Assembly: GCF_007748175.1 (NCBI RefSeq)
Contig: NZ_CP037422.1
Location: 5,534,334-5,598,333, forward strand
DNA from: Gimesia aquarii
Lineage (GTDB): Bacteria > Planctomycetota > Planctomycetia > Planctomycetales > Planctomycetaceae
Length of the DNA: 64,000 bases
Direction: 5' to 3'
Position 1 is the stretch's first letter. Each line of letters begins with the position of its first letter. The notes beneath the pieces are model-generated. The model was not told where the DNA came from and searched no databases. It saw only the letters and a list, made by a program, of their open reading frames with translations. Shown here in pieces: positions 6,793 to 51,344 of this stretch. Position numbers and translations under genes: made by a program.

Positions 6793-7748
6793 TTACCAAC
6801 ATCATCCTTACTTAATTCAAATCCTCTTGGCTCAAATTCAAAATCACGCTTAACATCCTTATTTGAGAAAGTAAGGTCCTGGTTCATTCTTTTAGCCATT
6901 CCGACTGACACTTTTTTAAAGCGTGGAAAGATATGCAAGAATGTTATGATAATGCGAAAAAACATCAGAGGTAAGTGAAAAAAAAATGGTTTTATGCCCA
7001 AAGTGGTAAATATCCTTTCGACCATTTTTTTGTATGACAACGATTCTCCACCTGAAATATTGTATGCTTTGTTGGTAATGTTTTTTTTGAAGAGTGCCAG
7101 GTGGCAAAACTGTGCAACATCATCGACATGGATAGGTTGTCTTAAGCCTTCGGCCTTGCCTAAAAGTGGAACAAAACCAAAGCGTTGAATAAATCGAGAA
7201 ATCATTGTAATGTTTTGGTCACGTCCCCAGCCATAGATCATAGTGGTTCGAACTATAATCCATTCGATTTGATGTTGCTCTGCCCAGCTGATTAATTGGT
7301 GCTCACCATCTGCTAAGCGATTTGCGAGTTTTTGTTCTGTAAGATCGATGGAATGTTCTTTTGTAAAACGGCTGGTTGAACTGAGTGCAACAATGCGGCG
7401 TGCACCACGTGATTTTAACAAGGGAAAATATTCAGGTAAGACCCAAATTGGTGCTAGGCAAATCCAGTATTCTATCTTCTGTTTGTCAGCTGCCAGAGGA
7501 TTATCATTTAGCATACACCAGTGGACCCTGCCGGTCTCTTCATCCGTCAATTTCTGTAAATTTCGACTGAATGCAATCCAGGAGTAATCTCGATCAGAGA
7601 TTTGCGTGAATTCTCGCGCAAAGAGCCGGTTGCCAACGAAGCTCGTGGCTCCCAGAACTCCAACTACTAATTCAGGCTCTGGCACTCGATGTCCATCTAA
7701 AAAACTTAGTGTTAGTGGGGCAGGGGTTGAGGTGAAACGCCTCATCAT
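6789..7748 (-). CDS. NAD-dependent epimerase/dehydratase family (WbpV-like 4-keto-sugar reductase candidate)
   Basis: 319 residues, extended/atypical SDR fold. The nucleotide-binding loop reads GATSFVG (33-39), with Ser where the middle Gly usually stands. The segment SSTSRFTKEHS lacks the YxxxK catalytic pair at its usual place, as in the atypical SDR group found next to WecA-like transferases. The downstream RTTMIYGWGRDQNI and C-terminal RMNQDLTFSN with PRGFE match the pattern of UDP-QuiNAc-type 4-ketoreductases. It is coupled to the transferase gene by a 4-base overlap, so it probably makes or modifies the sugar that the transferase loads. The exact reaction is inferred from family and position. 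Confidence 0.75.
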   Translation of the reverse strand: MMRRFTSTPAPLTLSFLDGHRVPEPELVVGVLGATSFVGNRLFAREFTQISDRDYSWIAFSRNLQKLTDEETGRVHWCMLNDNPLAADKQKIEYWICLAPIWVLPEYFPLLKSRGARRIVALSSTSRFTKEHSIDLTEQKLANRLADGEHQLISWAEQHQIEWIIVRTTMIYGWGRDQNITMISRFIQRFGFVPLLGKAEGLRQPIHVDDVAQFCHLALFKKNITNKAYNISGGESLSYKKMVERIFTTLGIKPFFFHLPLMFFRIIITFLHIFPRFKKVSVGMAKRMNQDLTFSNKDVKRDFEFEPRGFELSKDDVGK

Positions 7749-8179
7749 TTTGAGTCTGTCTTTGTTTGCAGAGGCCTGCCACCAAATGAGTAATCCCGTT
7801 GTACTATTCTTGCAATCAGAGTGTATATATATCAGTTCCCCCCCTTTTCACAAGGCGGGTTTCTGTCGTTATAAAGAACGAGACTTACGGATTTGGTGTG
7901 ACAATGGCTGAATCGATGCAAGATGAGGCAGTTTATGCTGTTAATACAGGAAACAATTTCAATTGCACTATCAAGAACAATTTGATATACATCCCTTGAA
8001 GGCAGGGAATACTTCTATTTTTTATTCAAATATACAGCATCAAAACTAGGGTATCCTGTTATGCGTATTTGGATTTAAATAAGTTATATTGGGTAGTTTT
8101 GTTGATTCTTATATGACAAGGTCTATCTAGAGCAAACCCCTTAGCAAGTAAGCTAAGTGTATCTGTGAAGGAGTACAGA
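7749..8179. other. divergent intergenic region upstream of two polysaccharide operons
   Basis: About 430 bases between the leftward SDR/WecA pair and the rightward operon, so it should carry both promoters, although I see no consensus pair. A perfect 6-base hairpin (CTTAGC 8140-8145, GCTAAG 8152-8157) ends 10 bases before the AAGGAG of the next gene. TCCCT/AGGGA arms occur near 7992-8008. AT-rich, with no supported gene. Confidence 0.35.
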
Positions 8180-9007
8180 GTGGTAGATACTTCTGACGAA
8201 CTGAGAGTGTTGCTCTCAGATAGCAGTCCCTTGGTGGAAGATTCGCGAGTCGATGCTCCTGGAGTTTATTATGGGCAGGGAGTCAGTATCGATAAGTCCG
8301 CAAAAATTGGTCCCAATGCTGTCATTCTTGGTCATGACGAAAACGGAAATCAGGCTGCTGTCATTAAGGAAGAGGCAGAGATCGGCGCGAATGCAACAAT
8401 TCTTTCAGGTGTCACCGTGGGATTTCGTGCCCGCGTCTCTCCTGGCTCTGTAGTGACACGTTCCGTCCCTCCCCTTGCCATTGTTGAGGGGAATCCAGCC
8501 AAAATTATCGGGTATGTCGAAACCCACGAATCTGAAAACCAGACAATTAGCATCAATAACGTCGATTCAACCCCCTTGGGTTTTCGCCAGACTCGCGTAC
8601 GGGGTGTCACCGTTCACCATTTTCATAAGGTTCCTGATCTCCGAGGCAGCCTTTCGGTAGGTGAATTTGAGCATGAGATTCCTTTCGTCCCCAAACGTTA
8701 TTTTCTCGTATACGATGTTCCCACAGCAGAAGTACGCGGAGAACATGCCCACCTTGAGTGTGGACAATTCCTGATTGCTGTAAAAGGGAGTGTGAGCGTC
8801 GTGGTAGACGACGGTAATCTGCGTGATGAAATTTTACTTAATCGGCCTCAAATGGGAGTGTACCTCCCCCCCATGACATGGGGTATTCAATACAACTACT
8901 CAACAGATGCTGTTTTACTTGTTTTTGCGTCTGAGTTTTACGATGCAGAAGATTATATTCGAGACTATTCAAAATTTTTAGACTTAGTGAAGCGGCGTGC
9001 TGCTTAA
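8180..9007 (+). CDS. bifunctional sugar N-acyltransferase / dTDP-4-keto-6-deoxyhexose 3,4-ketoisomerase (FdtD/WxcM-like)
   Basis: I chose the GTG at 8180 because AAGGAG lies 6 bases before it; an in-frame GTG at 8165 has no such site. The 275-residue protein has two domains. Residues about 30-112 are a left-handed beta-helix hexapeptide acyltransferase (IGPNAVILG, IGANATILSGVTVG, PGSVVTRSVPP, EGNPAKIIGY). Residues about 145-270 are a cupin of the FdtA/QdtA/WxcM group with RGEHAH (186-191) and GSVSVVVDDG. Family enzymes isomerise dTDP-4-keto-6-deoxyglucose to the 3-keto sugar and N-acylate the later 3-amino sugar. The matching aminotransferase is at 15194 and RmlA at 21430, which supports a dTDP-Fuc3NAc/Qui3NAc-type pathway. 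First gene of a rightward operon. Confidence 0.87.
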   Translation: MVDTSDELRVLLSDSSPLVEDSRVDAPGVYYGQGVSIDKSAKIGPNAVILGHDENGNQAAVIKEEAEIGANATILSGVTVGFRARVSPGSVVTRSVPPLAIVEGNPAKIIGYVETHESENQTISINNVDSTPLGFRQTRVRGVTVHHFHKVPDLRGSLSVGEFEHEIPFVPKRYFLVYDVPTAEVRGEHAHLECGQFLIAVKGSVSVVVDDGNLRDEILLNRPQMGVYLPPMTWGIQYNYSTDAVLLVFASEFYDAEDYIRDYSKFLDLVKRRAA

Positions 9008-46010: not shown

Positions 46011-49041
<3,031 letters not shown>

Positions 49042-49063: not shown

Positions 49064-50053
49064 TCATGCTGTCGAAACTTTCTGGAGTAGATTCATCTGT
49101 TGTAATCGTTCCAACCGATCATGCAGATTGATCTCATTTTGATAAAGTCGATCCAGATCCCAAAGGTCCATAAAAACTCTTCCTTGCTTTAAATTCAAGC
49201 AGGCCTCCAATGTTTCTTCAACAGAGGAGAGAAGGGGATGAGAAAACTGCCCTGTCTGTTCCAGTTGTTCGAGAATACCGTTTCCAGAACGTGTCGGAAT
49301 CAGAGAGCAGCAATTTACTCCCAGAGAAAATGCATATTCAACAGAACGTATGGCCCACTCAATTCCCTCTTGCTCATTCATGAATGGTGGCTTCAATAAT
49401 ATAAATGCCCTAATCTGAATGGAGTGGTTTGCCAAGAATTCGACGGCTTTTGAGAAATCTTCTAGAGTCATTTGCTTATTCAGAGCTTGTAAGACATTTT
49501 CGTGGATGATTTCCAGTCCTAATGCGATTTCCAGTTGTCCGCTTATCATTTGTTGAAAGTCCAGGCAGTCCTGATTGCACAACAACGGATGGTTTTCAAC
49601 GATCACTCTTTCAAAATTTTGAACCTGAGAGGCAATACGCGGAATGTCTTTTTCTGGAATCGCTTTGCGATCAAAGAAGTTACCGCTGTTATACAGTTTC
49701 ACTTGTTGAGCCGGTGGCAGTTGCTTAAGGGCATAGTCGATTTGATGTGTGATCATGCCTGGAGTAAGTGTCTCGTCCAATGTGTTTTGCCAGAGATCAC
49801 ACATCAGACATCGAAAAGGACACTCACGGTTTGTAAGAAAGATCGTAGATATTTCAGTCAGGGCTCCATCTGAATCGCACTCTGTTTCATTTAAGAAAGC
49901 ATAAGGCATTTCGGGAGATACCTGATTTTTAGCAGAGCGGGCCGCTTGAATTTGCTGATTCGTAAATGAGGGAAGAATGTGATCCATGCCAGGTTGTGTT
50001 TTGAGCCTCGTTTCTCTATTGGTAAAGCGATAAAAACGTTTGACGATATTCAT
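49064..50053 (-). CDS. radical SAM protein (archaeosine RaSEA/Elp3-related group)
   Basis: 329 residues. The cluster motif NRECPFRCLMCDLWQ gives Cys78, Cys82 and Cys85 in the CX3CX2C order. QQVKLYNSGNFFD and the later RVIVENHPLLC and EIALGLEIIHENVLQALNKQ resemble the group that includes archaeosine synthase RaSEA and TIGR01210-like proteins. IRAFILLKPPFMNEQEGIEWA is the usual middle part. The substrate is unknown. It overlaps the asparagine-synthetase-like gene by 38 bases, so the two are translated together and probably act in one pathway. No precursor-peptide gene or tRNA-guanine transglycosylase is adjacent. Confidence 0.8.
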   Translation of the reverse strand: MNIVKRFYRFTNRETRLKTQPGMDHILPSFTNQQIQAARSAKNQVSPEMPYAFLNETECDSDGALTEISTIFLTNRECPFRCLMCDLWQNTLDETLTPGMITHQIDYALKQLPPAQQVKLYNSGNFFDRKAIPEKDIPRIASQVQNFERVIVENHPLLCNQDCLDFQQMISGQLEIALGLEIIHENVLQALNKQMTLEDFSKAVEFLANHSIQIRAFILLKPPFMNEQEGIEWAIRSVEYAFSLGVNCCSLIPTRSGNGILEQLEQTGQFSHPLLSSVEETLEACLNLKQGRVFMDLWDLDRLYQNEINLHDRLERLQQMNLLQKVSTA

Positions 50054-51344
50054 TTTCTGTATCAGAGAATACCGATTCGAAAGAATCGTGATTTAGAGTT
50101 CCCTCTTGAAAACGACGTTTTGGATAGACTGGCATGGCTAGACCAGTAATCTGCTTGATTCCTCTACATACAATATCACCTTTGAGGGCATATAGTTTGT
50201 TGTGATCCCAATTTGTCAACTCGATAAAAGGGATTCCTTCTGCAACTTCAATGACATTGGGTAATGCATAAGGGCTAAATCCTTGAAATCCAAGACTTCG
50301 AGCAGGTGCATAGGTTCGAACGTGTCCACGGCTCTGGCCCCCTGAATAAGTTAACGAATGCTTAACAGCTTCAACTCCCCAGCCTTCCTGGTAGAGCATC
50401 AAATTATTGAGCACACTGCGTATAGTAAGCTCAGGATTCGCTTCAATAGGGTAGTCTTTCAGATTCTCGTCTCCTCCATCGCCGTCGACCAAATGAGTCC
50501 AACGTGGATAAAGGGTACGGATTTTTTTGCACAAAGCGTAAGTCATCGTCGCAGCTTCAACATCAAGTGATTTATAGTCTTCCAGAACTTTCACTGTTTC
50601 TTCAAAATCCAGGCTTCTGCGAGGGACTTCAAGCACTTCGAGAAACAGATTCAAATTCATCTGTTCCAGAAACTGATATGCTTGTTGGCAATCACTACCT
50701 TCCCCATCTATGGAAAGGGAAAACGCTTTGAGACGGGAAGGCGATTCATTGCGAGTGATCAGTGCATGGTACATGAGCAGAAACAGGGCGCCACTATCAA
50801 CACCACCGGAAAAGAGCACGCCGATAGGCTCAACTGGAGGAATGGAATCTAGCCACTTATGAATTTCCTCAGAGACCGTCCCGATATACTGTTTTCCAAT
50901 TTCATCTAACTGATTTGGAAGAGAGTTTCGAGTGGGAGTAAAGAATCGAGTTGTCTTGGGATTGGGGTCGGGGCAGCCAATTAATTGTAGCTCAAGAATG
51001 TAATGCGCAGGAACCATTCTTGTATAGGAAGGATGAAACTGTGTATCGAGGCCTTCGCTTTTGAGAAACTCATATATTTCGTCAATTCTTTCAGCAACGA
51101 CAAGGCAGGGTCCCTCAGCGCGTTTTGCCAGAAAAAATCTCATTGGTCTACCAATAGACCGGGCCATCCGAATACAAGTACCCTCTTTATGAATCAGAGC
51201 AAATTGACCTTCGATTTCCCTTACAGCCTCTGGTGAACCTGTTCCCACTCGCTCTGTTGCCTCTTCAAAAGTCATATTGAAGAGAAGATTTGCTTGAGGA
51301 TCCAGCAAATTAACAAGTCGTTCCACATATTCTTCATGAATCAT
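50016..51344 (-). CDS. asparagine-synthetase-like ATP-pyrophosphatase without glutaminase cysteine
   Basis: 442 residues, AGGA 9 bases before the ATG. Residues about 160-440 match the AsnB C-terminal synthetase domain: PP-loop LFSGGVDS (177-184), AFSLSIDGEGSDCQQAY, and HLVDGDGGDENLKDYP in place of the usual GEGADELFGGY. The first 100 residues resemble a shortened glutamine amidotransferase domain (IEGQFALIHKEG, GRPMRFFLA). It starts MIHEEY, with no Cys2, so glutamine hydrolysis is not expected. It may adenylate a carboxylate and join it to ammonia or an amine, as beta-lactam synthetases do. It is followed directly by the radical SAM gene. Confidence 0.8.
   Translation of the reverse strand: MIHEEYVERLVNLLDPQANLLFNMTFEEATERVGTGSPEAVREIEGQFALIHKEGTCIRMARSIGRPMRFFLAKRAEGPCLVVAERIDEIYEFLKSEGLDTQFHPSYTRMVPAHYILELQLIGCPDPNPKTTRFFTPTRNSLPNQLDEIGKQYIGTVSEEIHKWLDSIPPVEPIGVLFSGGVDSGALFLLMYHALITRNESPSRLKAFSLSIDGEGSDCQQAYQFLEQMNLNLFLEVLEVPRRSLDFEETVKVLEDYKSLDVEAATMTYALCKKIRTLYPRWTHLVDGDGGDENLKDYPIEANPELTIRSVLNNLMLYQEGWGVEAVKHSLTYSGGQSRGHVRTYAPARSLGFQGFSPYALPNVIEVAEGIPFIELTNWDHNKLYALKGDIVCRGIKQITGLAMPVYPKRRFQEGTLNHDSFESVFSDTENEYRQTFLSLYQ

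Follow-up and report, generated by a model that had tools for sequence, protein, structure and literature searches.

Two adjacent genes on the minus strand of the Gimesia aquarii genome (7.22 Mb), encoding a truncated asparagine-synthetase-like protein (AS) and a RaSEA-like radical S-adenosylmethionine (SAM) protein (RS), recur in Planctomycetota and Bacteroidota together with a third gene, which encodes a predicted flavin-dependent halogenase. The pair lies in the window, the whole 64,000-nucleotide stretch analysed here (NZ_CP037422.1; G000:C1:5534334-5598333), where both open reading frames (ORFs) were found on the strand and at the positions given by an earlier sequence-only reading; the halogenase gene lies outside the window and so was not visible to that reading. 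We put at about even the chances that the three enzymes form a conserved tailoring or biosynthetic pathway, in which AS would act as a glutamine-free ligase, RS would carry out a radical step and the halogenase would act on an aromatic group. No description of the three-enzyme set was found in the open-access full-text literature, the only literature searched; the sequence-only reading for its part knew of no described system with the AS-RS pair.

Co-occurrence and order of the three genes

Homologues were counted in an even sample of 294 genomes across the phylum, with at most five candidates scored per genome for AS and for the halogenase, in a second sample of 40 relatives, and in the best 80 of 477 loci, a selection that is biased to close relatives and includes near-copies (L098/L114 and L058/L061). 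Full-length AS and RS (E≤1e-15) were found in the identical 13 of the 294 phylum genomes, and the two proteins were present in the identical 21 of the 40 relatives. Six further AS matches (E 1e-4 to 6e-4) are limited to the part containing the PP-loop and were scored as misses. RS lies directly downstream of AS in 50 of the 80 loci and 2.5-3.1 kb away in 3; it was not found in the fetched stretch of the remaining 27, six of whose contigs end within 1 kb. Among the 26 genomes without an adjacent RS (26 of these 27 loci, L053 being left out), 22 encode RS elsewhere. The pairing of AS and RS is beyond chance, and the outcome that the sequence-only reading had named as refuting a joint role, the two genes occurring apart in most relatives, was not observed.

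Clustering of neighbouring genes revealed a flavin adenine dinucleotide (FAD) protein, the predicted halogenase, downstream of RS in many loci. It is present in 43 of the 80 loci, and in 37 of these 43 it is downstream, on the same strand and within 3 kb; where AS and RS are adjacent with 3 kb or more of sequence beyond them, 30 of 38 loci contain it. Halogenase matches at E≤1.1e-94 occurred in exactly the 13 phylum genomes with AS and RS, and weaker matches in four others (8.2e-55 to 1.2e-39) may be other halogenases. Among the relatives, 20 of the 21 AS genomes have a halogenase match (E≤6.4e-90); nothing better than 1.5e-14 was found in the 19 genomes lacking AS. Co-occurrence holds also in G238 and G106, where each of the three genes is on a contig of its own. 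Within each of two genera, presence or absence of the genes goes together: G157 and G215 carry the complete set and G020 none of it, and likewise G106 carries the complete set and G124 none of it. Sequence distances across 40 complete sets also co-vary (AS-RS 0.908, AS-halogenase 0.917, RS-halogenase 0.886; permutation p 0.001), although these correlations include shared genome descent and are supporting rather than decisive. Since the genes co-occur even across contigs, keep a conserved order and belong to co-varying families, a joint function of AS and RS is well supported.

Families of the three enzymes

Motifs were counted in collapsed gene sets of 97 AS, 91 RS and 67 halogenase genes, and alignments A1, A2 and A3 comprise 33, 30 and 22 members picked by hand. 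AS matched the Pfam Asn_synthase family (PF00733) at 4.3e-10 with 40.2 bits against a cut-off of 21, placing it in this superfamily. The complete PP-loop reported by the sequence-only reading is intact (SGGVDS), and the pattern S[GA]G[IVL]DS was present in 97/97 extracted AS genes. The GDGGDEN motif aligned to the same motif in the AsnB proteins of this genome, and the core near GDGGDENLKDYPIE and LYQEGWG is nearly invariant in the 33 aligned members (mostly Planctomycetota, Rhodothermota and Bacteroidota), the most divergent of which, from G038, shows about 44-45% identity. Lys K409 (in MPVYPKRRFQ) is invariant in 33/33; it may correspond to the Lys that is catalytic in AsnB and beta-lactam synthetase, although the profile alignment left it unplaced. 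The Bacteroidota rows of the AS tree, 18 in number, require 3 changes, against 16.3 in shuffles. Apparent fusions of AS to a further domain in L075, L088 and L129 (ORFs of 861, 891 and 606 codons including the stop) were rejected, since the homologous part begins at the usual Met and the extra sequence is thus upstream open frame.

An AlphaFold2 model of AS (predicted local distance difference test score, pLDDT, 87.1) has three tied structural neighbours: beta-lactam synthetase (1mc1; Z 25.5, root-mean-square deviation (rmsd) 3.7, 373 residues, 17% identity), human ASNS (Z 25.4, rmsd 3.7, 389 residues) and E. coli AsnB (Z 25.1, rmsd 3.3, 366 residues). PDB searches with a single AS or RS sequence gave no matches, and a search with an AS profile returned weak AsnB/ASNS rows. 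The sequence-only reading had described an amidotransferase domain lacking Cys2. Cys at residue 2 is indeed found in 0/97 AS genes, start codons being modelled for this count, but not Cys2 alone is affected: because the first residue that aligns structurally is 37-40 in AsnB, ASNS and beta-lactam synthetase and 31 in carbapenam synthetase, the glutaminase domain apparently lacks its beginning, including the strand that bears the nucleophile. Glutamine is not used by beta-lactam synthetase, carbapenam synthetase or the lasso cyclases, all of which have the AsnB fold. AS resembles the beta-lactam synthetase type in its AsnB-like two-domain fold, its PP-loop and its lack of Cys2 (the lasso cyclases lie outside the structural comparison), and differs from 1mc1 in the late start of the alignment, at residue 40, and in the low identity. 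Its partners, RS and the predicted halogenase, also set it apart from this type, with no lasso-type precursor among the listed clusters.

The Pfam match and the intact PP-loop would also suit a divergent but ordinary asparagine synthetase with an incidental neighbour. AS scored 33 bits against the AsnB family (TIGR01536; cut-off 267.1), however, and the genome already encodes three proteins above that cut-off (525.6, 512.0 and 445.4 bits), which makes an AsnB role for AS unlikely. The apparent loss of the glutaminase start and the co-occurrence with RS and the halogenase argue in the same direction. An AsnB function was rejected on score, structure and the three true AsnB proteins, and we regard this explanation as extremely improbable.

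RS is the sole RaSEA relative found in the genome (119.8 bits in the genome search). Its best NCBIfam match was RaSEA (TIGR01210) at 1.5e-34, bearing out the resemblance noted earlier, though its 119.7 bits fall 92 bits short of the cut-off of 212.15; the next-best NCBIfam family reached E 3.5e-4. The score against the radical SAM Pfam model, 26.6, is slightly below the cut-off of 29.5, and the CxxxCxxC motif is present in 91/91 RS genes. Two C-terminal Cys pairs were found in 71/91 RS genes with a loose pattern and are absent from the 14 extracted RS of the window's genus (here region 49064-49150); they are therefore not essential to the gene set. The structural model of RS (pLDDT 92.2) gave radical SAM folds throughout the best 50 rows of VIA-align (Z 14.5-17.9), consistent with membership of the superfamily, with queuine lyase first (Z 17.9, rmsd 3.2, 218 residues), followed by Elp3 with tRNA and biotin synthase (both Z 16.8). 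The best row of a PDB search with an RS profile reached only E 0.24.

A 38-base overlap between the two genes had been taken by the sequence-only reading as a strong sign of coupling. This overlap is probably an artefact of taking the first ATG as start codon. Since the RS of relatives begin at the counterpart of Met23 in the 329-residue ORF, the true start is likely the ATG at 49987, predicting a protein of 307 residues and a 28-base gap between the two genes. The listed genus members other than the window's have RS of 306-310 residues starting 3 to about 150 bases past the AS stop, and a longer RS frame is found elsewhere in the genus list only in G002, whose AS is 98% identical. In the RS model, residues 1-16 of the longer ORF have pLDDT <50. 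The case for joint function is independent of the overlap and stands on the other evidence.

The RaSEA resemblance raises the alternative of a tRNA-base or 7-deazaguanine pathway, in which AS would load a base with an amino acid, to be trimmed by RS. RaSEA is the nearest relative of RS by sequence, and the first two fold rows, queuine lyase and Elp3 with tRNA, point the same way, with biotin synthase tying for second. In the ArcS-RaSEA system, lysine is added to preQ0 and the resulting preQ0-lysine is turned into archaeosine in tRNA by RaSEA, so that a ligation enzyme and a radical SAM enzyme act jointly, as could be the case here; ArcS is a relative of ArcTGT (PMC11298593) and not an AsnB-type ligase. 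The set differs further from ArcS-RaSEA in the score of RS below the RaSEA cut-off, in the halogenase and in the absence from the genome of an archaeosine Tgt (TIGR00432) above the cut-off (best 63.6 bits against 350). We know of no halogenated tRNA base. With a halogenase as third partner, no Tgt above the cut-off and no halogenated base known to us, the tRNA half of the joint role on a tRNA base or small molecule proposed by the sequence-only reading is weakened, while joint function itself is well supported; tRNA modification becomes less likely, and we consider this pathway decidedly doubtful.

For the halogenase, the profile matched PltM at 2.8e-77 and tetracycline 7-halogenase at 5.7e-67. 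An Ala variant of PltM Lys87 is inactive (PMC6424973), and Fx.Px.Sx.G is a motif of flavin-dependent halogenases (PMC12645471). A Lys aligned to Lys87 (in G-x-K-R-G-F) was found in 67/67 halogenase genes and Fx.Px.Sx.G in 61/67 by strict pattern; the failures are one-letter variants, except for L129 (FVDPFYSMG) and L181 (motif not found). Taken together, these likenesses suggest that the third partner is likely a PltM-type flavin-dependent halogenase of predicted activity, whose partners differ from those of PltM and tetracycline 7-halogenase. A flavin-dependent halogenase (Amm3) and a putative asparagine synthetase (Amm20) also occur together in the ammosamide C cluster (amm); unlike the present set as seen here, amm relies on PEARLs acting on a peptide scaffold, and a test of Amm20 was not possible there (PMC12715798).

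An associated repeat protein and the gene surroundings

A further protein, here called ELWE-type, is about 1200 residues long with TPR and FG-GAP repeats and mostly with an ASPIC/UnbV match, although the copy of this genome has no such match at E 0.001. It is a looser fourth partner, linked to the set but not obligate. In 14 of the 80 loci (8 Bacteroidota, 6 Planctomycetota) AS has a match no more than 8 kb away, the one in L120 being partial (3e-84). At E≤1e-40 the 40 relatives have one match per genome, with two in G038 and none in 10. Strong matches (E≤5.4e-114) comprise all 21 AS genomes and the AS-less G020 and G023, and weaker ones (4e-67 to 5e-58) were found in seven other relatives. 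Some members begin with a lipoprotein-like signal, as judged by eye, and the protein is probably secreted. Thirteen columns, three of them Trp, separate the subfamily (22 sequences near AS or in AS genomes, the G038 gene entering twice and L112, which lacks the region, being dropped) from eight other homologues (seven from AS-less genomes and the second G038 copy). G038 (L040, L175, L224), which belongs to another family, has a divergent AS together with RS, and an ELWE-type protein is nearby.

This association is the basis of a second alternative, modelled on QhpG/QhpD-type cofactor formation: the three enzymes would modify the ELWE-type protein before export, by halogenation or hydroxylation of Trp or Tyr, a radical step and an amide link. 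Proximity to AS in 14 loci, despite about one match per genome, would fit such a role, as would the strong match in every AS genome among the relatives and the three Trp of the subfamily columns, and the models of QhpG, LodB and GoxB match the halogenase family, below their cut-offs. G020 and G023, however, encode an ELWE-type protein with the same marked residues and none of the three enzymes, and this persistence speaks against modification by the set. The halogenase is nearest among solved structures to PltM, the substrates of which are small phenols, and no peptide-binding domain was noticed in AS, no search having been aimed at one. Modification of the ELWE-type protein, as a rival to the pathway favoured here, seems to us rather unlikely.

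Features of the pair and its surroundings in the window (positions within the window unless a contig is given)
Feature	Position	Strand or orientation	Basis or remark
AS, 442-residue truncated asparagine-synthetase-like protein, putative amide ligase	50016..51344	-	domain match, alignment, model
PP-loop SGGVDS, AS residues 179-184	50793..50810	-	sequence
GDGGDEN, AS residues 288-294	50463..50483	-	invariant, 33/33 aligned
RS, RaSEA-like radical SAM protein, likely 307 residues	49064..49987	-	ATG at 49985-49987; listed ORF begins 50053
CxxxCxxC (CPFRCLMC) of RS	49799..49822	-	sequence
ligA	47035-49041	convergent with the pair	
ORF of 1222 residues	51863-55531	divergent from the pair	no Pfam match at E 0.001
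Predicted halogenase	G000:C1:5275967-5277460		about 306 kb from RS, outside the window

A gene resembling the 1222-residue ORF occurs close to AS and RS in four loci of Gimesia type (L054, L055, L182 and L183). The halogenase gene of this genome (8965-10464 of L196, G000:C1:5267000-5286000) stands divergently beside a gene at 7288-8895, which we take to be aldehyde-dehydrogenase-like; a similar gene comes after the halogenase in L066 and L069, and antisense ORFs common to L066, L196, L197, L199, L238 and L239 suggest the same halogenase neighbour. Seven loci (L083, L085, L095, L105, L108, L115 and L128) have a common neighbourhood around AS, RS and the halogenase, with what are presumably DUF1549-like, DUF1501-like and WD40-like genes after the halogenase and a divergent helix-turn-helix-regulator-like gene before. 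In L086 (9317-10297 and downstream), three genes come after AS and RS, with 525, 289 and 521 codons including the stop, none of them the halogenase.

Proposed pathway and its significance

The chemistry proposed for the three-enzyme pathway is drawn from the families to which its members belong. AS would adenylate a carboxylate with ATP at its PP-loop and join it to an amine; because the glutaminase domain apparently lacks its start, this amine would not derive from glutamine, and AS may use it directly. RS would take a hydrogen from the AS product and break or rearrange a bond. A C-N bond is plausible, since the nearest relative of RS by sequence is RaSEA and, less firmly, the first row of one structural aligner is queuine lyase, an enzyme that cleaves a C-N bond. 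The halogenase would add Cl or Br to the same compound, on an electron-rich aromatic ring, and the ELWE-type protein would likely be an accessory for binding, transport or as a target. A more specific version, which we hold to be quite improbable, is amidation with a borrowed amine: in place of ammonia from glutamine, AS would join a whole amino acid or other amine to an aromatic carboxylate, and RS would cut the C-N bond of that amino acid, so that a primary amide remains, or else a group newly substituted at N. If true, the logic of ArcS-RaSEA would have arisen anew with a ligase of asparagine-synthetase type, and for a halogenated compound conserved across two phyla.

Several observations weigh against a common three-enzyme pathway or against the functions assigned within it. 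RS was not found genome-wide in 4 of the 26 AS genomes without an adjacent copy (L073, L101, L110 and L114), all metagenome-assembled, and no halogenase match was found in G038, which has AS and RS. The halogenase is missing from the locus, whole genomes not having been searched, in 8 of the 38 loci considered above (L054, L055, L077, L082, L086, L087, L104 and L117), and with at most five candidates scored per genome it could be missed in the remaining phylum genomes. The 13 set-bearing genomes span 7 genera and hence are not 13 independent events. In the halogenase family, the position of the WxWxIP motif, unlike in PltM and tetracycline 7-halogenase, reads WxWxLR in 55/67 genes and WxWxIR in 3/67, with WxWxIP itself in 2/67, and related flavin monooxygenases have the same fold. 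With Foldseek, Elp3 came first for RS and queuine lyase was not in the first 50 rows. Of further partners, none that was biosynthetic or consistent appeared among the top 22 neighbour clusters of 129 partly overlapping loci. No precursor peptide, in contrast to amm, was found among the 15 most widely shared short-ORF clusters (25-110 codons, within 2.5 kb).

By eye, each of these 15 clusters falls within a larger gene, runs antisense to one or belongs to a single synteny group, and a precursor of a ribosomally synthesised and post-translationally modified peptide was rejected on these grounds. A neighbour family seen in 30 of the 129 loci, which we take to be DUF1501-like, was set aside with no control because DUF1501-like proteins are very common in Planctomycetes.

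The AS proteins of the 40 complete sets have a mean identity of 67% and a lowest identity of 57%. The retention of the set in both Planctomycetota and Bacteroidota with a ligase so well conserved suggests that the product of the pathway is conserved and strongly constrained, and not an antibiotic specific to single strains. Identification of this product would be expected to reveal a new halogenated metabolite or modification, together with an apparently glutamine-free member of the asparagine-synthetase fold, and would give a RaSEA-like radical enzyme a function outside archaea.

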